From: a virus | Virus record (IMG/VR): IMGVR_UViG_3300027754_004885 | Span: 1 to 64,000 of that record | Strand: one strand, 5' to 3' | DNA length: 64,000 nucleotides | Part shown: piece by piece, positions 2,301 to 63,146 of the stretch | Layout: the number at the start of each line of letters is the position of its first letter | How positions within the stretch are numbered: the stretch's first letter is position 1 | The notes under the pieces: generated by a model | The model's input: the letters and a program-made list of their open reading frames with translations, nothing else | What the model was told of the DNA's origin: nothing | Databases searched by the model: none | Made by a program: the position numbers and the translations under genes

Positions 2301-2647
2301 GATCAGCAAAAGTAGAGCTGCTCGCTAAAGTCGTAGCTTGGAGAGCTTTCTCCATGTGCTACGGTTTCTCGATAGCTTACTTTTTCACTGGAAGCGCGGG
2401 AGAGTCTGCCGGGATCGTCCTCATCACAGGGACCACGCTGACTCTCCTTCAGTGGTTTTTTGAGATCATTTGGGATAAACACATTAGGAGCAGTTTGAGA
2501 AATGCCGTTTCAGGACAACAGGGTGGAGCTGGTCGGTTGGTACGGTGGGGACGAAGCGCACGCTCTCTCAGCGTGGACGAGCACGAGTCGGGATCTCACA
2601 GAGGAGAAGAGAAAGCGGGTTCCAGCCCTCCTGAAGATGCTGGCTGA
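2297..2647 (+). CDS. DUF2061-like small membrane protein, long overlap with thyX
   Basis: Starts at TTG inside the TTGA that ends the glutamine synthetase gene. The first about 65 residues (KVVAWRAFSMCYGFSIAYF..TGS...LQWFFEIIWDKH) resemble the DUF2061 pattern of Trp-Arg followed by two membrane segments. The last about 50 residues are charged and low-complexity because the frame overlaps thyX by 146 bases; that tail may be tolerated read-through rather than a domain. Function unknown; location inner membrane by prediction. Confidence 0.6.
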   Translation: MRSAKVELLAKVVAWRAFSMCYGFSIAYFFTGSAGESAGIVLITGTTLTLLQWFFEIIWDKHIRSSLRNAVSGQQGGAGRLVRWGRSARSLSVDEHESGSHRGEEKAGSSPPEDAG

Positions 2648-3170
2648 GAATGGTCATGAGACTCCTTTCGAGAAGAGTTCGCTGCATTTTCTCGTTACCG
2701 TTGACACGGCGACTCACATCCACCTTCTAAAGCATCGTATCGGAGTTTCGATCAACGCTGAGTCAGCTCGCTACAAGGAGCTGAAGGATGACAAGTACGT
2801 CGTTCCAAACGATTGGCCTATGATTGAGAAGGCGAAGTACATCGCTTTCATGGAGGACGCTGTCATGCGCTACCACGAGACTCTCGAGCGTCTTGTCGAG
2901 TGTGGTATGGATCGCAAGCGAGCTAAGGAGTCCGCCCGATTCTACCTGCCCTACGGTAATCAGGTGACAATGGATCTCATGTTCAACTGGCGTTCTTTCA
3001 ATCACTTTCTCGGCCTTCGGATGAAGCAGGACGCGCAGCTCGAGGTACGTGAGCTTGCTCAAAAGATGCTGCATCTCGTGCATGATATTCCCGGAAGTCC
3101 GTTCCACCACACGATCGAAGCGTTCGGTTTCAGTGACGATGTGAAGGAAGCTTTTCATCCACCGTACTAG
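2502..3170 (+). CDS. thyX: Flavin-dependent thymidylate synthase ThyX
   Basis: 222 aa. The signature HRIGVSINAESARY is the ThyX RHR-x7-8-S motif (the first Arg is Lys here), followed by YLPYGNQVTMDLMFNWRSFNHF. The enzyme methylates dUMP to dTMP with methylene-tetrahydrofolate and FAD. The window also holds a ThyA-fold protein (16048) that looks like a hydroxymethylase, so ThyX is probably the only true thymidylate synthase here. Confidence 0.93.
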   Translation: MPFQDNRVELVGWYGGDEAHALSAWTSTSRDLTEEKRKRVPALLKMLAENGHETPFEKSSLHFLVTVDTATHIHLLKHRIGVSINAESARYKELKDDKYVVPNDWPMIEKAKYIAFMEDAVMRYHETLERLVECGMDRKRAKESARFYLPYGNQVTMDLMFNWRSFNHFLGLRMKQDAQLEVRELAQKMLHLVHDIPGSPFHHTIEAFGFSDDVKEAFHPPY

Positions 3171-4061: not shown

Positions 4062-5627
4062 ATGATTTCCAAGCCCTACCTGCGAGCTCTCATCGAATCA
4101 GTCCTGCTCGAGAGCTACAAGATCGATCAGCGCTACCTGATCGAAAAGTACCCGGATCACTCGGCTGAGCTCTCGAAGCTTCAGCCCAAGTGGATTGCGT
4201 GGCTCACCGCTCGATTCGGTGAGAATCCGACGAGTTCCGAGAGCGCTACCTTTGAGAAAGCTCTCGAAGCTATCAAGTCCTACGCTCCGCTCGATTCTGC
4301 GATGGGTGAGAAGTACCGCACCAACGATTGGTGGCGGGGACAGGTCGACGCTGCTTTTCCGGACAGGCAGTGGTCATCCCCCTCCGACCCGACGAACATG
4401 ACTGTCGTTGACATGCTAGGGCTCGTCAAGCTTTCGAAGCTCAAGAAACCTCGCATCGAGGTCGATAGATCGCAGAGCATTGAGGGCGATAAGATCGGTC
4501 GGGTCGGTCCTTGGGAGATCTACGAGGCTTCCAGCCGTGAGAACAGCTGCAACATTGTGGGCCTCAACAAGGAATCTGGAAAGCCCAACACCGACTGGTG
4601 CACGGCTCGGACCGACGCCTCGAATCTCTTCTACAACTACGTCGCCCTGTACAGCATGTTCACTCTCGTTCACCAGGGGAACGTTCCCACCCGACGGAAG
4701 TGGGTCTCGATAGCCTTGAATGATAGCGGGACAGTGGAGTATGAGGGTATCCCGGGAGAGCATCCCACGGTCGACGGTGAGAATGATCCTATGAATGAGG
4801 TGGGTCTGAGGCGCATGCTCGGAGAGGACTTCGATGGTGTCATGGAGATCCTGCGAGGGCGTGTAGAAGCACATGGTGGGGTCTCACCTGCGCGGGAGAA
4901 GATCAGGGATGCTGCTCGCGATGCCCAGAGCTTCAATCACATCATGCAGGGTATATCGAAGACGGAGGCTGCTTCCCTGAAGCAGCAGGTCGCGAAAGCC
5001 CCCGGTATCTCGAGTGATATAGCCCAGCTCCTCGCTGATGATCCCGAGTGGCGGGTGAGACATATGCTCGCCCAGAACAATGACATTCCCGTTGACATCA
5101 TCGAGAAGCTCTCCCGAGATGATAGCGTCGATGTGCGCCAGAGGATCGCGAAAAATGAGTCGACTCCTCCCGAGATACTCACGCGCCTCACGAAGGACAA
5201 GGAGGTCGTTCAATATGTCGTTATGAACCCTCACGCTCCGCCCGAGACACTAGCTTCACTCGCAGATATTTCGTTCTTTGACAGGGTACTGGGCCGCACT
5301 GACAGGGATCTTCTCAAGGCTATCGGTAAGAATCCATCGACCCCCGTTAAAACGCTTCAGAATCTTGCTAAGAATTCTGACTATTACATTCGTTTGGGAG
5401 TCGCTCAGAATAGGGGCGCTCCCGCCAGCTTGATTCGCCAGCTCGCAAATGACGAAAACCCCACCGTTCGAGCCTCCGTAGCTTACAATAAAAGCACCGA
5501 CATCAGCATCGTACGTGAGCTCGCGAACGACAAGGACGGAAGCGTTGCGCTGACCGCTCGTGAGGAGTTAAGGAAGCGCGGTATGAGTGAGTCCCGGCTC
5601 CGCAATCTCATCAGACGGATGATCTGA
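4062..5627 (+). CDS. WCTA-domain protein with LRV-type repeats, copy 1
   Basis: 521 aa. Layout: N-terminal tag and helical segment (LRALIESVLLESYKIDQRYL, then EKYPDH..LQPKWIAWLTARFGE); a middle domain (about 135-290) with GPWEIYEASSRENSC, TDWCTARTDASNLFYNY and RKWVSIAL; and from about 310 on, helical repeats of roughly 24 residues with the pattern N-x-x-TP-x-x-L-x-x-L-A-x-D-x-x-x-x-V-R, as in leucine-rich-repeat-variant (LRV) proteins. The C-terminus is another tag, MSESRLRNLIRRMI. Tandem paralogue of the next gene. Probably virion-associated; biochemical role unknown. Confidence 0.7.
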   Translation: MISKPYLRALIESVLLESYKIDQRYLIEKYPDHSAELSKLQPKWIAWLTARFGENPTSSESATFEKALEAIKSYAPLDSAMGEKYRTNDWWRGQVDAAFPDRQWSSPSDPTNMTVVDMLGLVKLSKLKKPRIEVDRSQSIEGDKIGRVGPWEIYEASSRENSCNIVGLNKESGKPNTDWCTARTDASNLFYNYVALYSMFTLVHQGNVPTRRKWVSIALNDSGTVEYEGIPGEHPTVDGENDPMNEVGLRRMLGEDFDGVMEILRGRVEAHGGVSPAREKIRDAARDAQSFNHIMQGISKTEAASLKQQVAKAPGISSDIAQLLADDPEWRVRHMLAQNNDIPVDIIEKLSRDDSVDVRQRIAKNESTPPEILTRLTKDKEVVQYVVMNPHAPPETLASLADISFFDRVLGRTDRDLLKAIGKNPSTPVKTLQNLAKNSDYYIRLGVAQNRGAPASLIRQLANDENPTVRASVAYNKSTDISIVRELANDKDGSVALTAREELRKRGMSESRLRNLIRRMI

Positions 5628-5645: not shown

Positions 5646-7394
5646 ATGATGCTGAACCGTTTCAAACTGCGTGTCCTTGTCGAATCAGTACTCCTCGAGG
5701 GATTCAAGGACGACCAACGCTACCTCGCCGAGAAGTACCCGGATCATGCCCAGGATCTCTCACGCCTTCAACCCAAGTGGATCGGCTGGTTGACTGCTCG
5801 TTTTGGTGAGAGGCCCAAGACTGAGGAGATCCATCCGTTTGAGGATGCGATTGTCACGATCAAAAACTTCTCGAAACGGGACGCTGCGATCGGTGAGAAG
5901 TACAAGGCAAACGAGCAGTTCAGGACTGCTATAGATTCTCGATTCCCACCTGACGCACGCTCGTGGAACTCTCCCGCTGATCCTACCACAATGACAGTTG
6001 ACGAGATGGAGCTGATTCTCGGTCTCTCGGAGATGAAGAAGCAGAGGATCGAGGTCAATGAAGCTGAGGATATCGAGGGCGACCGGGTCGGCAAAGTTGG
6101 ACCGTGGAATCTTTGGTTACCCACGACTCGCGAGAAGAGCTGTAAGATCGCTCAGTACGATCCGGCAACGATGGAGCCCAAGACAACCTGGTGCACAGCC
6201 CGAACTTCGGGATCGAATCTATTCTACAACTACGTCGGCCGACCAGGTCAGGACGTAACGCTCTTCTATGCTATCAAAGATAGTCCCAAATCCGATGTTG
6301 ATTGGGTTTCAATCGGATTCGTGAACGGAAATCCCACTTTGGGCGGCAAAGATGGTGGGCTGTCGGTCGATAGAGCCAATAAAGGTCTCACTCAAACAAG
6401 GTTGCGAGATATTCTCGGTCCTTATCACGATGAGATCATGGTGATATTCAAGGAAAAGAATCGAAGCTTGGGTGGAAGGCATCCTGCTAGTTTGAAAGTT
6501 CAACTCGCTGCGAGAAGCGTTGAAGATTTTAATCACGTGACGAAGGGGATCTCAAAGGACGAGGCGAGCGACCTCATGCATCTCATTCTGAGAGAGCCAG
6601 GAGTTGATGATGGCGTTCTCAAGTTGATGCTCGATAGAGGAAACGTAGGCGTTCGAGCTCAGGTTGTCGGCGGATCGAATCTAACGCTCTCAGATGAGAT
6701 GCTCGATAGAGTAGTTTCCGATCCTGACGCCAGCGTTCGGCGAGCAATCTTGTATTACTTTGAAAAACGAAGAGAAGCCGTACCCGCCTGGCTGGCTCTA
6801 AAATTATGGAACGATCCTGATAATGACAACAAGTACATGATCGCTAAGCACCCATCGATCCCTAAAGAAAGTATCAACGCTTTCTTTGAGGACCTATCAC
6901 GAAGCAAAAACAAAGATGATCGCGGGAGAGCAGCGCGCTCGACAAGAGATCATGTCGTTCTCGCCAAGCTTGCGAGCGATCGCGCGGATGGCGTCAGGGA
7001 AAGAGTCGCACAAAATCTGCACACACCACCAGATGTCTTGGTCAAGCTGTCAAATGACAAAAGAGAAGCTGTGTATATGAGCGCGATCGCAAACAGAAAT
7101 CTGCCCCAAGAGATGCTCGTGTCATTTTCCAGCGATCCCGACCCTATAAAGCGCAGAAGCGTCGCGTGGAACCTGAACACCCCGCCAGAGATCCTCTCTA
7201 AGCTCGCAAGAGATGATGAGGATCAGGTTCGTAGATGGGTCGTGCAGCATTCGAATACTCCGACGGAGGTTATCCGCTCGATGTTGAATGACGATGACCT
7301 CCGTGTCACCCAGCTCGCCGGTGAAGCTCTGAAAAAACGAGAGAAAACAATGAGTGAATCCAGGCTCCGGCAACTCATCAGGCAGATGCTGTAA
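5646..7394 (+). CDS. WCTA-domain protein with LRV-type repeats, copy 2
   Basis: 582 aa paralogue of the 4062 gene, with the same three parts: N-terminal LRVLVESVLLEGFKDDQRYL and EKYPDHAQDLSRLQPKWIGW; a middle domain with GPWNLWLPTTREKSC and TTWCTARTSGSNLFYNYV; then LRV repeats (for example VAQNLHTPPDVLVKLSNDK and VAWNLNTPPEILSKLARDD), ending in MSESRLRQLIRQML. The middle-domain invariants shared by both copies are W, S-C, W-C-T-A-R-T and NLFYNY. The two N-terminal thirds are far better conserved than the repeats, which have diverged and changed in number. Confidence 0.7.
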   Translation: MMLNRFKLRVLVESVLLEGFKDDQRYLAEKYPDHAQDLSRLQPKWIGWLTARFGERPKTEEIHPFEDAIVTIKNFSKRDAAIGEKYKANEQFRTAIDSRFPPDARSWNSPADPTTMTVDEMELILGLSEMKKQRIEVNEAEDIEGDRVGKVGPWNLWLPTTREKSCKIAQYDPATMEPKTTWCTARTSGSNLFYNYVGRPGQDVTLFYAIKDSPKSDVDWVSIGFVNGNPTLGGKDGGLSVDRANKGLTQTRLRDILGPYHDEIMVIFKEKNRSLGGRHPASLKVQLAARSVEDFNHVTKGISKDEASDLMHLILREPGVDDGVLKLMLDRGNVGVRAQVVGGSNLTLSDEMLDRVVSDPDASVRRAILYYFEKRREAVPAWLALKLWNDPDNDNKYMIAKHPSIPKESINAFFEDLSRSKNKDDRGRAARSTRDHVVLAKLASDRADGVRERVAQNLHTPPDVLVKLSNDKREAVYMSAIANRNLPQEMLVSFSSDPDPIKRRSVAWNLNTPPEILSKLARDDEDQVRRWVVQHSNTPTEVIRSMLNDDDLRVTQLAGEALKKREKTMSESRLRQLIRQML

Positions 7395-10846: not shown

Positions 10847-13800
10847 ATGTCAGACCTTAGCGAACTTAAACGTCCAGAAAAGTTCTTTGGAATTCATTCG
10901 CACTCGGGGTTTTCGACGTTTGATGGACTTGGTTACCCACAAGAGCACATTGACTTCTGCCTCGAGAACGGTCTCGATGGTTGGAGCCTGACCGATCACG
11001 GTCAGATGAACGGCTTCGGTCACGCGTGGCTTCACGCTGACAAGCTGAAAAAAGCGGGGAAGGACCTGAAGTTCATCCCGGGTTGTGAGATGTACATCCA
11101 CCCGGATCTCAATGCCTGGCAGGCTGAGTACCACGAGTGGCAGCAGCTCAAGCGAGACCGCAAGAGCCACGCGAAGGCGAAGGAGAAGCCCGAGAGCATC
11201 GTGACTCCGATCGTCGCTGTCACCGACGAGAACGATGAGACTATCGGCATCGACACCGACGCCTCCGCCCTCACGATCGAGAACGAGGACGAGACGAAGT
11301 CCACGAAGCACTTCAACCCAATCAACCGTCGTCATCACCTCGTTGTCCTACCGCGTCACAGCAAGGGTCTCGAACGGCTTTTCGGTCTCGTGAGCCGTGG
11401 TTACTCGGAGGGCTTCTACAAGTTCCCACGTGTCGACCTCGCGATGCTAAAGGAGGCACAGGAGGACGATAACTTCATCGTCTCCACTGCCTGCATCGGT
11501 GGTCCGCTCGCCTTCGAGGTCTTCCGCGAGCTGCAGGAGCACAGCTTCGAGAGCCTGAACAGCCGGCTTCTCAATGATCCGTCGATCATGGAGCGCGTCA
11601 TCAACCGAGTCGGTAACTCGTTCGATGGTCTTGCTTGGGCTGTAGGTCGCAAGAACGTGATGCTCGAGCTGCAGTTCAACCGTCTCCCAGCCCAGCACAT
11701 CGTCAACCGCGCGATCATGGAGTTCGCGAAGCGTCAGGGCATGACCGACCAGCTCGTTGTTACCTGCGACTCCCACTATGCCCGCCCTGAGCACTGGAAG
11801 GAGCGCGAGATCTACAAGAAGCTCGGCTGGCTCAACTACGCTGACCTCTCGGCGGATTCCATCCCAAAGAGCAAGGATCAGCTGAAGTGTGAGCTCTACC
11901 CGAAGAACGCATCGCAGGTGTGGGATGAGTTCATGATCTCCCGCGGGACCGATGATTTCTACCGTGGTGAGGAGGAGCTCATTCGCAAGGCGGTCGAGAG
12001 AACCTGGCATCTCGCCCATGAGGAGATCGGTGACGTCCAACCTGATCGCTCCGTCAAGCTTCCGAGCTACGTCATCCCTGAGGGTAAGACGGCGAACCAG
12101 GCTCTTGTCGAATCCGTGAAGCAGGGCCTCATCGCGAAGGGTTTCCACACCGATCCTGTGTACGTCGAACGTGCGAAGTACGAGCTCGATGTCATCAAGC
12201 AGAAGGACTTCTCGTCCTACTTCCTCACGATGAAGGAGATCATCTCCGCTGCGAAGGAGCAGATGTTCGTCGGCGTCGGTCGAGGTTCCGGTGCGGGCTC
12301 CCTCGTCTGCTACGTCCTCGGCATCACTGACGTTGATCCGATCAAGTACGGTCTGCTCTTCGAGCGATTCCTATCCCCTGACCGCGAGGGTCTACCCGAC
12401 ATCGACACCGACGTCGAGAACCGAGATCTCCTACTCTCGATCCTACGTGAGAAGTTTGGCGGCGAGAACATCGTTCCAATCTCGAACTACAACACCTTCA
12501 AGCTGAAGACACTCATCCGCGACGTCTCCCGTCTCTATGACATTCCGCTCGAGGAGGTTAACGAGGCCCTGAAGACCGTCGAACGTGAGGTCATGAACGC
12601 AACGAAGAAGGTTGGGGATGACAAGAACCTGTTCGTCCTGACCTATGAGGACAGCTACGAGCACTGCGAGAGCTTCCGAAACTTCATCGATCGCCACCCA
12701 CAGGTCTCGGAATCCATCAAGGTCCTGTTCAAGCAGAACAAGGCTCTGGGGCGACACGCTGGTGGTGTCATCATCTCGGAACGTATTGCCGAGCGGATGC
12801 CACTCATCATGGCGAAGGGAGAGCAGCAGACCCCCTGGGTCGAGGGCATGAACTACAAGCATCTCGAGATGCTGGGGTGGGTTAAGTTCGACCTGCTGGG
12901 GCTTGAAACGCTTCGAACGATCCATCGAACGATCGAGCTAATTCTTCAGCGTCATCATGGGATCAAGAACCCGACGTTCCAGGAGGTCAAGAAGTGGTTC
13001 GATGAGCACATGGCAACCGACGTTATCAACTTCGATGATCAGAAGGTGTATGAGAACGTCTACCACGAGGCAACATCCCGAACGCCAGGTGTCTTTCAGC
13101 TCACCAGCAAGGGTGCCCAGCGTCTCTTCCAGAACGCCAAGCCACGATCGATCATCGACATCGCCACCCTGACTTCGGTCTTCCGACCTGGTCCGCTCGC
13201 GGCGAAGGTTGACAAGCTCTACCTCGAGGCGAAGGCGAACCCGCGAGACATCGACTACAAGCATCCACTCATCAAGCAGGTCCTCGAGCCGACATTCGGA
13301 TGCATCATCTTCCAGGAGCAGCTCATGCAGCTCTGCAACGTGGTGGCTGGGTTCCCAAAGTCCGAGTGCGACAAGGTTCGAAAGAACATCCTGAAGCGTC
13401 AGGGCGGTAACCCTGAGGAGTCGATGAAGAAGGCGAAAGCGATGAAGGACAACTTCGTCAACGGCGCGGTGGGCAATGGCATCAGGGAATCCGTCGCCTC
13501 TAAGCTCTGGGACGACATCCTCTTCTTCGCGGGGTACGGGTTCAACCTCTCCCACGCCCTGGCCTACGCTATCGATTCCTTCTACTGCGCCTGGCTCCTC
13601 ACGTACTTCGAATCCGAGTGGCTCTGCGCCTACATGGAGTCGATGATCGGTAACCCTGACGATCGTGCCCAGGCGATCTCCGATGTGAAGAAGATGGGGT
13701 ACGATATCGGCAACGTCGACATCAACCTCTCCACGAATCAGTGGTCGGTCGACTCTGAGCGTAAGCTCCTCATCCCATCCTTCAACACTATCAAGGGAGT

Positions 13801-14470
13801 CGGTGAGACAGCAATCGAGGAGATCGTGGCATGCCGACCTTACCGCAGCATCGAGGAGATGCTCTGGAAGGAGGACGGTCAGTGGCGACCCTCCAAGTTC
13901 AACAAGCGCGCTCTCGAGGCACTCATCAAGGCAAACGCGTTCGATTCGATGGGAATCGTTGGAAGCGGAAAGCAGTTCTCGTCCTGGAAGCAGATGCACC
14001 ACGTCATCATCGAGAATGCTGACGACATCAAGAAGTGGGCGAAGAAGGATCCACAGCGCGGCATCAAGAAGTTCCGCGAGCTCACTGTCGAGACCGAGGG
14101 CATGCCCGAGTGGACCCGTCGCGAGATTGCCCTGATGCAGATCGAGCTCTCGGGCAAGATGGATCCAATCTCCCTGGTCTCCACCGAACTTCGTCAGAAA
14201 TTTAAGGACAAGGAGGTTTACTCCATCGATAACTGGGAGAGACTTGATGTCTACTGGTTCGTTATCGTGAGCTCTGTCGAGAAGAAGACGAAGAACGGGA
14301 AGCCCTATCTCATGCTTCAGGTGATGGGTGAGGCTGGAAACACGGAAAAGATGTTCATGTGGGACTGGGACGGTAAGATTGCTTTTGAACCATACACGCT
14401 CTGCGTTGCCGAGGTCGATCGGTCTGACTTCGGGTTGTCGACAAAGGGTAAGAAAATCAAGGTTATGTGA
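10847..14470 (+). CDS. dnaE: DNA polymerase III alpha subunit-type replicase (family C)
   Basis: 1207 aa, near-normal DnaE length. The N-terminal PHP domain has FFGIHSHSGFSTFDG and SLTDHGQMNGFG with metal-binding His and Asp, and carries an insertion around residues 90-155. The palm has FVGVGRGSGAGSLVCYVLGI and PDIDTD (Asp518, Asp520 catalytic); the finger region has RHAGGVIIS and FQEQLMQL; a C-terminal OB-like segment (WFVIVSSVEKKTKNGKPYLM) ends the protein. It should be the phage's own replicative polymerase. A phage with a family C rather than family A or B polymerase replicates differently from T4 or T7. No sliding clamp or clamp loader is recognisable in the window. Confidence 0.95.
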   Translation: MSDLSELKRPEKFFGIHSHSGFSTFDGLGYPQEHIDFCLENGLDGWSLTDHGQMNGFGHAWLHADKLKKAGKDLKFIPGCEMYIHPDLNAWQAEYHEWQQLKRDRKSHAKAKEKPESIVTPIVAVTDENDETIGIDTDASALTIENEDETKSTKHFNPINRRHHLVVLPRHSKGLERLFGLVSRGYSEGFYKFPRVDLAMLKEAQEDDNFIVSTACIGGPLAFEVFRELQEHSFESLNSRLLNDPSIMERVINRVGNSFDGLAWAVGRKNVMLELQFNRLPAQHIVNRAIMEFAKRQGMTDQLVVTCDSHYARPEHWKEREIYKKLGWLNYADLSADSIPKSKDQLKCELYPKNASQVWDEFMISRGTDDFYRGEEELIRKAVERTWHLAHEEIGDVQPDRSVKLPSYVIPEGKTANQALVESVKQGLIAKGFHTDPVYVERAKYELDVIKQKDFSSYFLTMKEIISAAKEQMFVGVGRGSGAGSLVCYVLGITDVDPIKYGLLFERFLSPDREGLPDIDTDVENRDLLLSILREKFGGENIVPISNYNTFKLKTLIRDVSRLYDIPLEEVNEALKTVEREVMNATKKVGDDKNLFVLTYEDSYEHCESFRNFIDRHPQVSESIKVLFKQNKALGRHAGGVIISERIAERMPLIMAKGEQQTPWVEGMNYKHLEMLGWVKFDLLGLETLRTIHRTIELILQRHHGIKNPTFQEVKKWFDEHMATDVINFDDQKVYENVYHEATSRTPGVFQLTSKGAQRLFQNAKPRSIIDIATLTSVFRPGPLAAKVDKLYLEAKANPRDIDYKHPLIKQVLEPTFGCIIFQEQLMQLCNVVAGFPKSECDKVRKNILKRQGGNPEESMKKAKAMKDNFVNGAVGNGIRESVASKLWDDILFFAGYGFNLSHALAYAIDSFYCAWLLTYFESEWLCAYMESMIGNPDDRAQAISDVKKMGYDIGNVDINLSTNQWSVDSERKLLIPSFNTIKGVGETAIEEIVACRPYRSIEEMLWKEDGQWRPSKFNKRALEALIKANAFDSMGIVGSGKQFSSWKQMHHVIIENADDIKKWAKKDPQRGIKKFRELTVETEGMPEWTRREIALMQIELSGKMDPISLVSTELRQKFKDKEVYSIDNWERLDVYWFVIVSSVEKKTKNGKPYLMLQVMGEAGNTEKMFMWDWDGKIAFEPYTLCVAEVDRSDFGLSTKGKKIKVM

Positions 14471-31055: not shown

Positions 31056-32651
31056 ATGACCGAGGGTTTCAAGGCACTCATATTTGATGATGAGGCACGA
31101 GAGGGTCTGAGACGCGGGGTCGATTCCCTCGCTCAGGCTGTTAGGGTCACCATGGGACCCTCAGGTCAGAACGTGATAATTGAGATACCGGGCGCACCAC
31201 CGGTCGTCACGAAGGATGGAGTCTCCGTCGCCCGTGCGATCGATTTCCGGGATCGTAACATGAATCTCGGTGCTCAGATCGTCAAGGAGGCTGCAAATCG
31301 CACCTGCGATGCTGCTGGTGACGGAACGACGACAGCCACCGTGCTGACCCACGCGATTTTCAACGGTGGGCTTAGGGTGCTTTCGGGTGATCATAGCAGC
31401 CCCGAGGTACGCGCGGGCATGTCGTGGGCAGTTGGTTCCGTTATCGATGAGCTTCGCTCGATGTCGAAACCTGTCTCCTCGGATGAGGAGATCATCCAGG
31501 TTGGAACGATCTCAGCCAATGGAGAACGTGAGATCGGAGAGCTTCTCTCGCGAGCGATGAGAGCTGTCGGTCGCGATGGCACGATCACTGTTGAGGAGGC
31601 AAAGGGTTTCAGCACAAGTCTTCACGTTGTCGAGGGCGCTGAGCTCGATCGTGGGTACCTCTCTCCCTACTTCGTGACAGACAGTGAGAAGATGGTCTCC
31701 TCACTTGAGTCACCATACGTGCTCCTAACTAACAATAGGATCACGGCTCTGAAGGAGATCCTCCCACTTCTCGAGAAGATTCATAATGCCCAGAAGCCCG
31801 TCCTAATCGTCGCTGATGATATCGAGGGCGAGGCGATGCAGGGTCTTGTCGTTAATCGAACAAAGGGTATCCTGCAGGTTTGTGCCATAAAGGGTCCAGA
31901 GTTCGGTGAGAACCGTCTCCACGCTCTTCAGGATCTCGCGGCGCTGCTGGGGACGCGAGTCATTGTTGGAGAGTCAGAGCTAGCCAAGGTCACGATCCAG
32001 GATCTGGGCCGTTGCAAGCGCGCGATTGTCGGTCGATACAGGACGATCCTGATCGATGCAGCCGGCAAGAAAGAGGAGATCGAGGATCGCTCGAAGGAGA
32101 TTAGATCCCAGATCGATGATAACTCACTCGATCAGCAGGAGCGTGAGGTCCTACGTCGTCGACTTGCACGGCTCTCTGGCGGTGTCGCTGTCCTGAGGGT
32201 CGGCGGTGCAACTGAACCGGAGCTGAAGGAACGCAGGGATCGTGTTGATGACGCTCTACATGCCACGAAAGCTGCCGTCGAGGAGGGAATTCTCCCGGGC
32301 GGTGGAACTGCTCTTGTCCGTGCCGCAGCCAAGGTTCGCCGCCGACTCACGAAGAATCGCAGCGATTCATTCAAACAGGGCGCTGAGGTCATCTTTCAAT
32401 CATGCTGCGCCCCTCTCCGTCAGATTGTCTTGAACGCTGGACGCAATCCCGAGCTTGTCCTCTCGAAGGTTGAACGTCTCCGCGATAACATGGGATACGA
32501 TGCTGCCACGGAGCGCTACGTTGATACTCTCGAGTCCGGGATCGTTGATCCTCTGAAGGTGGTTCGCTCCGCTCTAGAGAACGCGCACTCCGCTGCGAGC
32601 ATGTTGCTTTCTGTGGGTTGCACGATCACAGATGACTCTCCTGCGGAATAG
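31056..32651 (+). CDS. groEL: Chaperonin GroEL
   Basis: 531 aa. VTMGPSGQNVIIE, TKDGVSVARAI, AAGDGTTTATVL, a polar apical domain, VGGATEPELKERRDRVDDAL and EEGILPGGGTALVRAA preserve the nucleotide site and catalytic Asp residues. The C-terminal Gly-Gly-Met repeat is missing (ends TDDSPAE), as in other phage chaperonins. Probably folds a phage protein too large or too special for host GroEL. No partner GroES is recognisable. Confidence 0.95.
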   Translation: MTEGFKALIFDDEAREGLRRGVDSLAQAVRVTMGPSGQNVIIEIPGAPPVVTKDGVSVARAIDFRDRNMNLGAQIVKEAANRTCDAAGDGTTTATVLTHAIFNGGLRVLSGDHSSPEVRAGMSWAVGSVIDELRSMSKPVSSDEEIIQVGTISANGEREIGELLSRAMRAVGRDGTITVEEAKGFSTSLHVVEGAELDRGYLSPYFVTDSEKMVSSLESPYVLLTNNRITALKEILPLLEKIHNAQKPVLIVADDIEGEAMQGLVVNRTKGILQVCAIKGPEFGENRLHALQDLAALLGTRVIVGESELAKVTIQDLGRCKRAIVGRYRTILIDAAGKKEEIEDRSKEIRSQIDDNSLDQQEREVLRRRLARLSGGVAVLRVGGATEPELKERRDRVDDALHATKAAVEEGILPGGGTALVRAAAKVRRRLTKNRSDSFKQGAEVIFQSCCAPLRQIVLNAGRNPELVLSKVERLRDNMGYDAATERYVDTLESGIVDPLKVVRSALENAHSAASMLLSVGCTITDDSPAE

Positions 32652-33368: not shown

Positions 33369-34154
33369 ATGCCGGACATGATGCAGTCATTCTTCAAGGA
33401 AGTTGGTCGCCACAAGCTTCTCGATCGTGAGGGTGAGGTTGAGCTCGCTCAGCAGATGGAGAGCAAGGACGAGGCAGTTCGGGCTGCGGCCCGAAATCGC
33501 ATGGTTCAGTCGAACATTCGACTGGCGATCTCGATCGCGAAGAAGTACCAGAACCGTGGTTGTGACTTCGAGGATCTCATCCAGGAGTCGACTCTCGGTC
33601 TCATGAAGGCGGTCGATCGCTTCGATTGGCGTCGAGGCTTCAAGTTCTCGACCTACGCGACGTGGTGGATCCGCCAGGCGGTCATGCGGCATATCACTCT
33701 CCAGTCCTCTTCCATCCGTCTCCCGGCGGGCGCGAATAACCTCGTGTGGCGTGCCCGTCGGGTTACGGAGGAGTACAATCGACAGTTCGGTGTGCAGCCG
33801 ACCGTGGAGGAGCTCGCCGACCTCCTGGGCGTGGGTTCCGGGTCTCTGGACATTCTTCTCCAGACTTCGAAGTACACTCTCTCGATCGATGCTCCCGGAA
33901 TGGCAGGCGATGATGGCGACGGTCCCACTCTCGGCGAGATGATCCCGGGAACCGGCGCCGATGAGATCAATGACAACATCGACCGAGAGAAGATCGCAGC
34001 AGCGATCCGTCGCGGACTCTCGAAGCTCACGGCTCGTGAGGAGAAGATCCTTCGACTCCGCTTCGGGATCACCGAAAGCTCCACCGATCATGTCAATTTC
34101 CCCATCACCCATGAAGAGCTTCACGCTCTTACCATCAGCTCGGAGATCAAGTAA
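33369..34154 (+). CDS. Sigma-70 family RNA polymerase sigma factor, region 4.2 missing
   Basis: 261 aa. Regions 1.2 to 4.1 are clear: NRMVQSNIRLAISIAKKYQN, DFEDLIQESTLGLMKAVDRF (2.1), FKFSTYATWWIRQAVMRHI (2.2-2.4), QPTVEELADLLG (3), then LTAREEKILRLRFGI (4.1). After it, ITHEELHALTISSEIK and a TAA stop replace the recognition helix of region 4.2. The following ORF begins directly at the next codon in the same frame and has a region-4.2-like HTH. It should direct host RNA polymerase to phage promoters. Confidence 0.9.
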   Translation: MPDMMQSFFKEVGRHKLLDREGEVELAQQMESKDEAVRAAARNRMVQSNIRLAISIAKKYQNRGCDFEDLIQESTLGLMKAVDRFDWRRGFKFSTYATWWIRQAVMRHITLQSSSIRLPAGANNLVWRARRVTEEYNRQFGVQPTVEELADLLGVGSGSLDILLQTSKYTLSIDAPGMAGDDGDGPTLGEMIPGTGADEINDNIDREKIAAAIRRGLSKLTAREEKILRLRFGITESSTDHVNFPITHEELHALTISSEIK

Positions 34155-36389: not shown

Positions 36390-36659
36390 ATGAATCCGAA
36401 GGCACATAGTATTAGCATAAAAGATCCAACGCGACTTGCGATAAGTTCACTTCAGCACGGTGGACGCGCTGGTGAGCAGGAGCTGAAGGAGATCGCCGAC
36501 ATGAGCGTTGTCGACTTACTGAGCTCAGGACTAACACTCGAGCAGGCAGAGACCGTCGTCAGGATGGCTGCGATTGAAATTGCAAGAATCTCAGAAACTG
36601 CGCGTATGGTACCGAAGACACCCGCCGTTGAAGTTAAGATCAAGAAGGGAAAGAAATAA
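36390..36659 (+). CDS. Small protein, unknown
   Basis: 89 aa. KELQHGGRAG-like start is absent; it reads SSLQHGGRAGEQELKEIADM then VVDLLSSGLTLEQAETVVRM, a helical protein with basic tail. Ends in the base before the next gene (overlap 1). Confidence 0.5.
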   Translation: MNPKAHSISIKDPTRLAISSLQHGGRAGEQELKEIADMSVVDLLSSGLTLEQAETVVRMAAIEIARISETARMVPKTPAVEVKIKKGKK

Positions 36660-37147
36660 TGGACAAGAAAGCACTTCGTAATATGATCCTGCAAGAGTGC
36701 GGCTGCATGGCTCGTGAGGGACAGCTTCCCAATGCTCTTGCGGCAGCGATGCCGATGCTCGACATTCTCGGATACGGTCACATGGACGGCGCAGCTCCCT
36801 ATGAGGATGAGGAAGGTCACATGACCTTCGAGGACTCTGACGAGTATGAGGAATCCTCGATGATAAAGGGAAACCTCTACAACATGGCTCAGCAGGCTCA
36901 AGAGCTTCACGACGCCCTTGAGGACGGCGATGATCTCCCTGAATGGGTTCAGGAGAAGATCGCTGTTGCCTCCGAGATGATAGACGTAATTTACGATTAC
37001 CTCAATGCAGAGACGGCACGTGGTGACATGAACGAGGCAAAGAAGCCGTGGTACATGAAGAAGCGCCGCAACATGAAGAAGACCAACGAGTCGGAGTGGT
37101 ATGACATTCCCAAGAAGAAGTCACGCGCCGTAAAAAAAAAGAGATAG
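36659..37147 (+). CDS. Tag-bearing virion-type protein, zero-frame product before a probable -1 frameshift
   Basis: 162 aa. Starts KKALRNMILQECGC (tag). Its central MIKGNLYNMAQQAQELHDAL then EDGDDLPEWVQEKIAVASEM and IDVIYDYLN is a helical domain that I recall as common in marine phages. It ends in a Lys/Arg tract from an A9 run. Slipping back one base at 37135-37141 continues the protein for 62 codons to a TAA at 37333-37335, just before the next gene. Confidence 0.75.
   Translation: MDKKALRNMILQECGCMAREGQLPNALAAAMPMLDILGYGHMDGAAPYEDEEGHMTFEDSDEYEESSMIKGNLYNMAQQAQELHDALEDGDDLPEWVQEKIAVASEMIDVIYDYLNAETARGDMNEAKKPWYMKKRRNMKKTNESEWYDIPKKKSRAVKKKR
37135..37141 (+). promoter_or_regulatory. Slippery heptamer A_AAA_AAG (probable -1 frameshift site)
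   Basis: In zero frame it reads A AAA AAG, the strongest bacterial -1 heptamer. GTCCTGG (37160-37166) and CCAGGAC (37182-37188) could form a downstream 7-bp stem, although 18 bases away. Confidence 0.6.
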
Positions 37148-37335
37148 GTGAGGCCAAGGGTCCTGGAACTGTTCGTCCGCCCCAGGACACGAAAAGCGAC
37201 ACACTTCTCGGACATCCGGAGGACGAGGGAAAATCTTTCACTGGCGTCTCTTTGAGCAACGATGAGGATTATCTCGGTAGACCGATGAAAGGTAAGAAGT
37301 TGAAGAACTTCGACATTTACAAGAAGCACAGGTAA
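37142..37335 (+). CDS. Frameshifted C-terminal extension of the 36659 protein
   Basis: In the -1 frame the text runs EIGEAKGPGTVRPPQDTKSD and on to DYLGRPMKGKKLKNFDIYKK with no stop until 37333. GPGTVRPPQ echoes GPGSVRPPQ at the start of the next protein, so this is real phage coding sequence. Without the frameshift the 189 bases would be an unexplained gap. Confidence 0.6.
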
Positions 37336-37336
37336 C

Positions 37337-38686
37337 ATGAACTCAAGAGCTCTTAAAATACTTGTCAGAGAAGAAATCAGCAGGCTCATCGAGAAGGGTC
37401 CCGGTTCCGTTCGTCCCCCACAGGTAACGGACAAGATCCTACCCGGTCATGACACGGAAAGCAAGATTTACGGTGGGGCGACGCTCGACCTGGACGTTGA
37501 GGGCAATCCCAACAATCCGAAGAAGCTTGGAACCCGTGACGTTTACAATAATACTCCCGCTTACAAGAAAGCGAAGACTCTCTCGGAAGGGTTAAACTAC
37601 CACCTGAAGAACAGGATTCCGCTTAGCGAGAACGTTTACCGTCCAGGAACGAAGGAGTTCTTTCGACTTGTCAATGAAGCTCGTCATCTCTGGCTAGAGG
37701 GAAGGTACGCTGCGACCGAGGAAGAGTACGAGATTTTCGAGAGCGATCTGGGAAGGTGGGCGATGCACGAGGGTCGGATGGTCCCACTCGACTTCCCGAT
37801 GTGGGATGAGGGCTTGAGAGAATCGTTCGCCGATCACTACGGAGACCAGCATGGAAGATGGATCGAGCTCTCCCACGATGATCTCATCGAGAATCCGGAG
37901 ATTTACGACGAGATCTTCAGCATCATCGATCAATCATACGCTTACATCGGCGGTCACGCGAACTACAAGTCTGTCGCAGCCGTGAAAGCATCAGACACAT
38001 CGATTTTCGCTCTTATCGATCTTGATGATGACCGCGAGGTCGACGCTGCCAGCATGAGAAAGAGGACCAATTTCGGTCTGAAGAATGTCGCATCCGCGAC
38101 GGATGGCACCGGGCTCGCTAAGTCAGCATTGAAAGCTCGGGTTGGTGAAGAGCTCACCACTCCAGGATACTACGCCGAGGTGAGTGACGCGATGGCAAAA
38201 GTTGCCCTGGGCCGTGGAGCGAAGACCGTCTCTGACGAGAAGGTCGTCAGACAAGTGCTGGACGGAAAGGAAATAGAGTGGTTCGGTGAGCATCCTGACG
38301 GCAAGTTCCCGGGAACCTACGGGTGGTACAGAAGGAACATCGGTGGGGAAGATCACGTAAAAATAATGGTTGGTCTTCCCAACGTCGGCGGCATGAATGA
38401 GGCAAAGTACAAGGGACGGACGGTGAAGCTTGGAAAGGCTGGTGCCTCGAAGTCAGGCGGCCGTGCTCACGTGTTCGTTCGTGACCCGAAGTCCGGAAAC
38501 ATCAGGAAGGTGTCGTTCGGATCGAGCATGCCCGATGCGATGGGATCCGGGCCGAAGGCGAAGGCTCGTCGAAAGAGCTTCGGCGAGCGTCACGGCTGCT
38601 CCGACAAGAAGGACAAGACGAAAGCTGGCTACTGGGCGTGTCGAGCGACGAAACTTTTCGGAAGGAACGTTCCCGGCTGGTGGTAG
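37337..38686 (+). CDS. Tag-bearing protein with DUF5872-like C-terminal domain
   Basis: 449 aa. N-terminal tag SRALKILVREEISRLIEKG, a linker with GPGSVRPPQ, an about 250-residue middle domain (IFSIIDQSYAYIGGHANYKS, FALIDLDDDREVDA, ...GWYRRNIGGEDHVKIMVG) that has acetyltransferase-like features, and a C-terminal basic domain KARRKSFGERHGCSDKKDKT..ARYW-like (KAGYWACRATKLF). Function unknown. Confidence 0.65.
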   Translation: MNSRALKILVREEISRLIEKGPGSVRPPQVTDKILPGHDTESKIYGGATLDLDVEGNPNNPKKLGTRDVYNNTPAYKKAKTLSEGLNYHLKNRIPLSENVYRPGTKEFFRLVNEARHLWLEGRYAATEEEYEIFESDLGRWAMHEGRMVPLDFPMWDEGLRESFADHYGDQHGRWIELSHDDLIENPEIYDEIFSIIDQSYAYIGGHANYKSVAAVKASDTSIFALIDLDDDREVDAASMRKRTNFGLKNVASATDGTGLAKSALKARVGEELTTPGYYAEVSDAMAKVALGRGAKTVSDEKVVRQVLDGKEIEWFGEHPDGKFPGTYGWYRRNIGGEDHVKIMVGLPNVGGMNEAKYKGRTVKLGKAGASKSGGRAHVFVRDPKSGNIRKVSFGSSMPDAMGSGPKAKARRKSFGERHGCSDKKDKTKAGYWACRATKLFGRNVPGWW

Positions 38687-56846: not shown

Positions 56847-57043
56847 TGAAACCAGGTGATCTTGTCCAGATCAAGAAGGGTGTCCAAGGCCGGGGTGAGG
56901 TCGGAGTCGTGATCGGCGAGGTCGAGGATCACCAATGGAACAGCAGCTTCACCCTCCTCGTGGTCCTGTTCCACGATGGTCTTCGTCGCATGCACCCCTA
57001 CAACCTCCAGGAGCCCGATGGGCAGGGGTCGGAGAAAGCATGA
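56846..57043 (+). CDS. KPGDL-family protein
   Basis: 65 aa. KPGDLVQIKKGVQGRGEVGV, IGEVEDHQWN; one-base overlap before and 4-base after. Confidence 0.75.
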   Translation: MKPGDLVQIKKGVQGRGEVGVVIGEVEDHQWNSSFTLLVVLFHDGLRRMHPYNLQEPDGQGSEKA

Positions 57044-57213
57044 AACCCGGTGATCTGATCTGGCTTCGAGATGACATGGGAAAACTCACACCTGCGATCT
57101 ACATCTCCGAGGCACCATCGTATTTCAGCGGACCTCGTATCAGGGTCCTGCAGGGAGGGGTCGTATTCGATATTGGAAAGCACAGGACCAGGGTGATCAA
57201 TGAAACCGGGTGA
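57040..57213 (+). CDS. KPGDL-family protein
   Basis: 57 aa. KPGDLIWLRDDMGKLTPAIY then IRVLQGGVVFDIGKHR, ending VINETG at a 14-base junction with the next gene. Confidence 0.75.
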   Translation: MKPGDLIWLRDDMGKLTPAIYISEAPSYFSGPRIRVLQGGVVFDIGKHRTRVINETG

Positions 57214-62950: not shown

Positions 62951-63146
62951 TCTGGTCAGGATTGTCCACTCAGACGATGAGAAACTCCCTGACGATATCC
63001 TCGGTCACACCGGAGTGATCGTCGAACCCGTCACACTCGAGGACGGCCATCCCATCAACAGTTGGTGCGACTGGTGGGTCCTGATCGATGGTGAGATGCA
63101 ACCATGGGCGGAGGAGAATCTGGAGGTGATCGATGAAAGCCGGTGA
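62937..63146 (+). CDS. KPGDL-family protein, array cassette 6
   Basis: 69 aa. KPGDLVRIVHSDDEKLPDDI, GVIVEPVTLEDGH, ends VIDESR. Confidence 0.75.
   Translation: MKPGDLVRIVHSDDEKLPDDILGHTGVIVEPVTLEDGHPINSWCDWWVLIDGEMQPWAEENLEVIDESR

Follow-up and report, generated by a model that had tools for sequence, protein, structure and literature searches.

Does the short gene at positions 36659 to 37147 of this DNA end at its own stop codon, or is part of its translation carried on in another frame? The stretch analyzed here (the window, 64 kb) comprises positions 1 to 64,000 of IMG/VR virus record IMGVR_UViG_3300027754_004885, a fragment from an uncultured, T4-like phage, and the evidence discussed below is metagenomic sequence throughout. 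The gene encodes a protein with a capsid-targeting-like N-terminal tag and a helical module, and its zero-frame codons at the 3' end read GTA AAA AAA AAG AGA TAG, i.e., a run of nine A's (A9) that holds the slippery heptamer A_AAA_AAG. Judging from this site and its relatives, it very probably serves programmed -1 recoding, by which some molecules of a tagged head-core-type protein receive an added module behind a prohead-protease-like site. Most decoding would stop right after the heptamer and give the short protein (tag plus helical module), while a fraction would slip back one base in the A run and yield a longer protein with an extra C-terminal module.

Programmed -1 frameshifting at A_AAA_AAG had been proposed for this gene from the letters of the window alone (the original prediction), and five orthologues as well as codon constraint in the -1 frame now support it. 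The A9 run and the perfect zero-frame heptamer are present as described, with the codon phase confirmed (Table 1). This run is the sole A or T run of at least 8 in the window, where 0.14 A runs of at least nine are expected under a first-order model. The -1 frame is open, as claimed, but it comprises 64 codons from the slip point rather than the 62 first counted. It does end on a TAA just before the next ATG and thereby fills the 189-base gap between the zero-frame stop and that ATG. The GPG-T/S-VRPPQ text that the extension was said to have in common with the next gene is likewise borne out, the extension and the start of the next protein being 45% identical over 55 residues (E = 3e-10 for that one comparison).

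Among the phage loci fetched for comparison (labeled L002 to L314, with L002 to L007 from IMG/VR) are five diverged, syntenic orthologues in separate metagenome records, L003 to L007, which are 67 to 83% identical to the zero-frame gene; L002 is an identical copy over 10,486 bases and is not counted as independent evidence. The gene order from groEL and the sigma factor gene to the genes beyond is preserved wherever the loci extend. Exactly nine A's followed by G, in the same phase, are found in 6/6 genomes, and TAA or TAG comes directly after the G in L003 to L007, the window having one additional codon, AGA. The original prediction had named a different run length or loss of the extension in homologues as evidence that would speak against it; all five orthologues keep the A9-G, the immediate stop, and a -1 extension, which carries the text (V/I)-x-E ... 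PPQ/PPR ... D-(I/V)-Y.

What follows the joint varies. In the split forms (window, L005, and L006), the extension is 63 to 64 amino acids long and is followed by a gene that has an ATG and a tag of its own. In the fused forms, the -1 frame runs for 256 (L003), 257 (L004), or 446 (L007) codons and spans the whole downstream C-domain; the -1 open reading frame (ORF) opens within the last 39 nucleotides (nt) of the zero-frame gene, and, from this arrangement, these three phages appear to make the C-domain by way of recoding. The added module would then be 64 amino acids in the window and the whole downstream domain in the fused forms. In a tree of concatenated neighboring proteins, split L006 is sister to fused L003 with 100% bootstrap support, so that the joint has outlasted changes in what follows it. 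Hidden Markov model searches of all loci found both domain types in one ordinary ORF in L031 to L033, and also in L149 (N-part weak, E = 6e-4), and as neighboring separate genes in L014/L160. Elsewhere, many T4-like phages have the C-domain as a gene by itself, frequently with its own tag.

Codon usage bears on both the extension and the site. In pairwise comparisons of the extension, codon positions 1 and 2 are better conserved than position 3, conservation over the full fused frames is about 0.85, 0.88, and 0.53 at positions 1, 2, and 3, and the alignment shows conservation of the -1 frame as far as the joint itself. Lysine codons of this phage are 84% AAG, yet AAA AAA AAG is found in every orthologue. 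The codon before them reads GTA, GTA, TTA, GTA, TCA, and TCA across the six genomes, and GTA, TTA, and TCA make up 7.1%, 1.9%, and 14.5% of Val, Leu, and Ser codons, respectively. That the A is kept while the preceding amino acid changes argues for selection on the nine-A run itself, and the observed codons set against codon usage indicate that the slippery site is constrained beyond amino acid coding; the six genomes being related, their codon choices are not independent trials.

Similar joints occur in other phage genes. We scanned 315 fetched loci, which total 2.3 Mb and derive mostly from T4-like phages, for A runs with an early stop in the zero frame and an extension in the -1 frame; some of these loci had been fetched with a pattern containing the A_AAA_AAG-stop signature itself. 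The same layout (A_AAA_AAG, an immediate TAA or TAG, and a -1 extension starting V-x-E) was found in five further extension families, with runs of six to ten A's (A6 to A10). The candidate loci, in unrelated T4-like genes, are L223/L250 and L251 (A9 in L250/L251); L227/L253, L255, L263, L264, and L314 (A10 in L253, L255, and L314, A7 in L263 and L264); L237/L252 (A10 in L252); L233 (A10); and L057, L060, L067, L074, L075, and L080 (A6, the L057 group). The zero-frame protein of L250/L251 matches the PHROG "virion structural protein" (E = 6.6e-17), and a second orthologue of the L237 site was looked for and not found. Where an ORF ends with A_AAA_AAG directly before its stop, 19 of 26 cases continue in the -1 frame for 30 codons or more without a nearby start, none of the same 26 has a +1 extension, and the background at other ORF ends is about 6%. 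With everything fetched from the pattern search onward left out, the count is 10 of 16, and with the window's clade left out too it is 5 of 11, all of one family; Fisher values overstate the significance of such counts because of family relatedness. A search with the pattern WA9GTARGTGARG returned 30 matches, mostly ordinary in-frame text of the KKKVSE type.

One of these families, here termed PFV, has its extension in frame in L265, L268, L280, and L301 and via the -1 frame in L227, L255, L263, L264, and L314, and this argues strongly for a real protein as the -1 product. The run can vary from A7 to A10 within one extension family while A_AAA_AAG plus TAA stays constant, and within each of the pairs L250/L251 and L057/L067 the zero-frame sequence just 5' of the joint is wholly different while joint and extension are common to the two members. 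Conceivably, A_AAA_AAG with a stop directly behind it serves repeatedly as a recoding joint in virion-type genes of T4-like phages, through which a fraction of the protein acquires one of several interchangeable C-terminal modules behind a protease-like V-x-E site, with swappable upstream sequence and with a longer A run or a hairpin setting the level; we regard the case for this generalization as evenly balanced. As a separate observation, L150 has at about 2127 (+) an A6 site, AGA AAA AAG AAG TGA, with which an ORF of 191 codons closes; the stop comes one codon later, and a candidate 105-codon -1 extension follows.

The residues at the tag and at the joint suggest what the longer product might be for. 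The tags of the orthologues end MIIAE, MILQE, or MILNE, i.e., I-A-E or I-L-x-E. In the stop-abutting form, the first residue of the extension must be Val because TAA or TAG follows the G, but the in-frame PFV homologues keep VTEA, LEEG, or VKEA at the joint ([VLM]-x-E-[AG]), so the stop alone does not account for the V-x-E motif. The (I/V)-x-E sequence beside the joint resembles the sites at which T4-type prohead proteases cut, so the tagged partner could carry the added module into the prohead, and a cut could then release it. The L003 record (142.9 kb) encodes a gp21-family protease (PF03420, E = 1.5e-27), adjoined by a similarly tagged gene, and gp23 (PF07068, E = 7.2e-64). Tag-like ends are also present at both termini of two neighboring large proteins of the window (4062-5627 and 5646-7394); the N-terminal ones read ..LRALIESVLLE and ..LRVLVESVLLE and the C-terminal ones ESRLRNLIRRMI and ESRLRQLIRQML, respectively.

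Table 1. Coordinates of the features at and around the recoding site, in window positions
Feature	Position	Strand	Basis or remark
Zero-frame gene, 162 amino acids	36659..37147	+	Stop 37145-37147; orthologues 67-83% identical in L003-L007; synteny conserved
N-terminal tag MDKKALRNMILQE, capsid-targeting-like, ends (I/L)-x-E	36659..36697	+	Alignment (orthologues ..MIIAE|C); similar tags in neighboring genes; putative role
Helical module FEDSD..EESSMIK.NL..LPEWVQEKIAV..YDYL	36830..37012	+	Present in many T4-like phage proteins
A9 run, then G	37132..37140	+	First A is third base of preceding codon (GTA/TTA/TCA across six genomes)
Slippery heptamer A_AAA_AAG, zero frame	37135..37141	+	In phase
-1 frame extension, 64 amino acids	37141..37335	+	Open frame closed by TAA 37333-37335; codon-position conservation; alignments
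I-G-E/A joint, candidate prohead-protease site	37144..37152	+	V-x-E then G/D/E in orthologues
Zero-frame stop TAG	37145..37147	+	One codon past heptamer in window
7-bp stem	37160..37188 (37160-37166/37182-37188)	+	Not supported as stimulator
Downstream gene, 449 amino acids	37337..38686	+	Own tag and C-domain (same C-domain fused via -1 frame in L003, L004, and L007)
Module in downstream gene paralogous to -1 extension (KGPGSVRPPQ...KKLGTRDVY)	37394..37546	+	Sequence alignment

Could the site nonetheless be an artifact or a relic? Homopolymers are error-prone and a fused product would be plausible, and the original prediction had kept a single-base error as its alternative; the true gene would then be one long ORF, broken by a sequencing or assembly error or by a recent natural indel. 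We give this very little credence and reject it, given that five diverged genomes from separate metagenome records have exactly nine A's with the zero-frame stop directly behind, and that versions of the layout with six or seven A's exist. The exact conservation in relatives and the recurrence of similar sites make the joint look like a deliberate switch rather than a sequencing mistake. Two ordinary genes, in which translation of the extension or the downstream domain begins at an internal start or by reinitiation, would suit the window, L005, and L006, where the downstream gene is a separate one and has an ATG and a tag of its own. Across the six genomes, however, no ATG, GTG, or TTG is conserved in the -1 frame near the joint (candidates vary, and L005 has none in its extension), and the conservation of that frame reaches the joint, which leaves this arrangement highly unlikely. 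Nor is the extension likely to be a functionless, decaying remnant of a lost fusion. Such decay would be in keeping with the C-domain having its own gene in the same three genomes and with an extension that is less conserved than the zero-frame part (43 to 52% identity to that of the window), but the frame is open in all six genomes, retains its length in the split forms, and shows the codon-position bias of a coding sequence. Several observations do weigh against programmed recoding with a prohead function. The window's clade consists of six genomes only, none of them from a cultured phage, and no gp23 or gp21-family gene was found in the window's record, which is a fragment; it is by analogy that we infer roles of tag and joint in prohead targeting and cleavage. 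In addition, the clade has no conserved downstream structure (RNAalifold, -2.6 kcal/mol over 150 columns), and as an upstream Shine-Dalgarno-like element there is GAAGGG-like text in 3/6 genomes only, which lies inside Lys/Gly codons and is not conserved.

The assignment of the slippage itself is complicated by the length of the run, as ribosomal frameshifting and RNA polymerase slippage are inseparable by sequence at A9. In the latter variant, polymerase slippage would produce mRNA with ten A's, which brings the extension in frame so that ordinary translation yields the fusion. Slippage of bacterial RNA polymerase is established for runs of nine A or T, for instance in Thermus dnaX (PMC5009743), and the nine A's in all six genomes exceed the heptamer's need and include a synonymous third-position A. 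Moreover, no stimulator is conserved. The 7-bp stem to which the original prediction pointed does exist, but it finds no support as a stimulator, as it starts 18 nt downstream, is not conserved, and is no stabler than shuffled sequence (z-scores of 0.63, -0.13, and 0.69). At the window site, polymerase slippage may consequently contribute to or replace ribosomal frameshifting. In contrast, the stop-abutting layout is not confined to long runs, and at the A6 (L057 group) and A7 (L263 and L264) sites, where the runs are too short for ordinary slippage, a hairpin starts at the canonical spacing of 5 to 6 nt past the heptamer (z about -2.0 to -2.5 and -3.3), which favors the ribosome; the retention of A_AAA_AAG plus TAA in a family spanning A7 to A10 argues in the same direction. 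Most A9/A10 sites, including that of the window, are without a hairpin, the exceptions being L005 (7 nt, z -3.6), L007 (19 nt, z -3.6), and L233 (about 9 nt, z -6.6). Polymerase slippage is a possible but somewhat doubtful explanation, and ribosomal frameshifting is probably what the sites have in common, slippage being raised by long runs; the ribosome is probably also the main actor at the window site. From the sequences we infer that slippage occurs, its level, and its mainly ribosomal nature.

E. coli dnaX has A_AAA_AAG as its classical slippery site, and a few bacteria have a dnaX stop directly after the site (PMC5009743). In the reversed dnaX form, for which Chlorobium phaeobacteroides is a candidate, the stop likewise lies directly against the site, and it is frameshifting that gives the longer product (PMC5009743). 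Unlike dnaX, the phage sites lie in tagged structural-type genes and have no conserved upstream Shine-Dalgarno-like element, and the A9 of the window has no convincing hairpin. Transcriptional slippage in Thermus thermophilus dnaX similarly involves nine A's in the mRNA and gives two products per gene (PMC5009743), but there the long product is zero-frame, whereas in the window gene it is -1. As in the T7/T3 major capsid protein and in structural proteins of Lactobacillus phage A2 and Listeria phage PSA (PMC5009743), a fraction of a structural protein would gain a C-terminal extension from another frame. The proteins are unrelated, however, being capsid or tail proteins there and tagged head-core-type proteins of T4-like phages here, in which the stop-abutting heptamer is reused for several extension families. 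The short N-terminal tag ending in (I/L)-x-E is shared with the T4 proteins that carry capsid-targeting sequences and are processed by the prohead protease (PMC3012670, PMC5694885), and like the T4 system the L003 genome encodes both the protease and gp23; packaging and cleavage of the tagged protein here are putative.

Little seems to have been written on programmed recoding in T4-like phages whose hosts are uncultured, and a search of the open-access literature returned no report of such recoding in T4-like head-core genes. Gene callers would split or drop -1 extensions of this kind. Were the joint a general device, it could account for the way in which these phages adjust the amount of cargo or core modules in the head, its signature (A_AAA_AAG-TAR followed by a V-x-E extension in the -1 frame) could be searched for, and the sites would provide a natural series, A6/A7 with a hairpin and A9/A10 mostly without, for parting ribosomal from polymerase slippage.

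Pfam and PHROGs gave no confident family for the zero-frame gene or the -1 extension, and Foldseek with AlphaFold models of the extension plus C-domain (predicted local distance difference test [pLDDT], 67) and of the N-domain (pLDDT, 62) gave no match at E<0.1. The genome contig collection contained no relatives, and phage isolates had weak, partial relatives only and none for the -1 extension. The downstream gene contains an apparent hotspot of domain insertion between PLDFPMWD and EAKYKGR, where the window gene (37337-38686) and L007 (5513-6850) hold different inserts of ~190 amino acids and L003, L004, and L006 hold none; part of the window's insert weakly matches proteins of huge uncultured phages.

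Elsewhere in the window are genes for a glutamine-synthetase-like protein (1266-2300, by eye), thymidylate synthase (2502-3170), a large DNA polymerase (10847-14470, PolIII-alpha-like by eye), GroEL (31056-32651), and an RNA polymerase sigma factor (33369-34154). Between 56935 and 63351 lies a set of short paralogous genes of about 65 to 72 amino acids, partly in tandem with overlapping ends, which start MKPGDL (at 57200, 62560, 62753, and 62937) or MKAGDL (at 63133); the MKPGDL start is also found inside the ORF at 56935.
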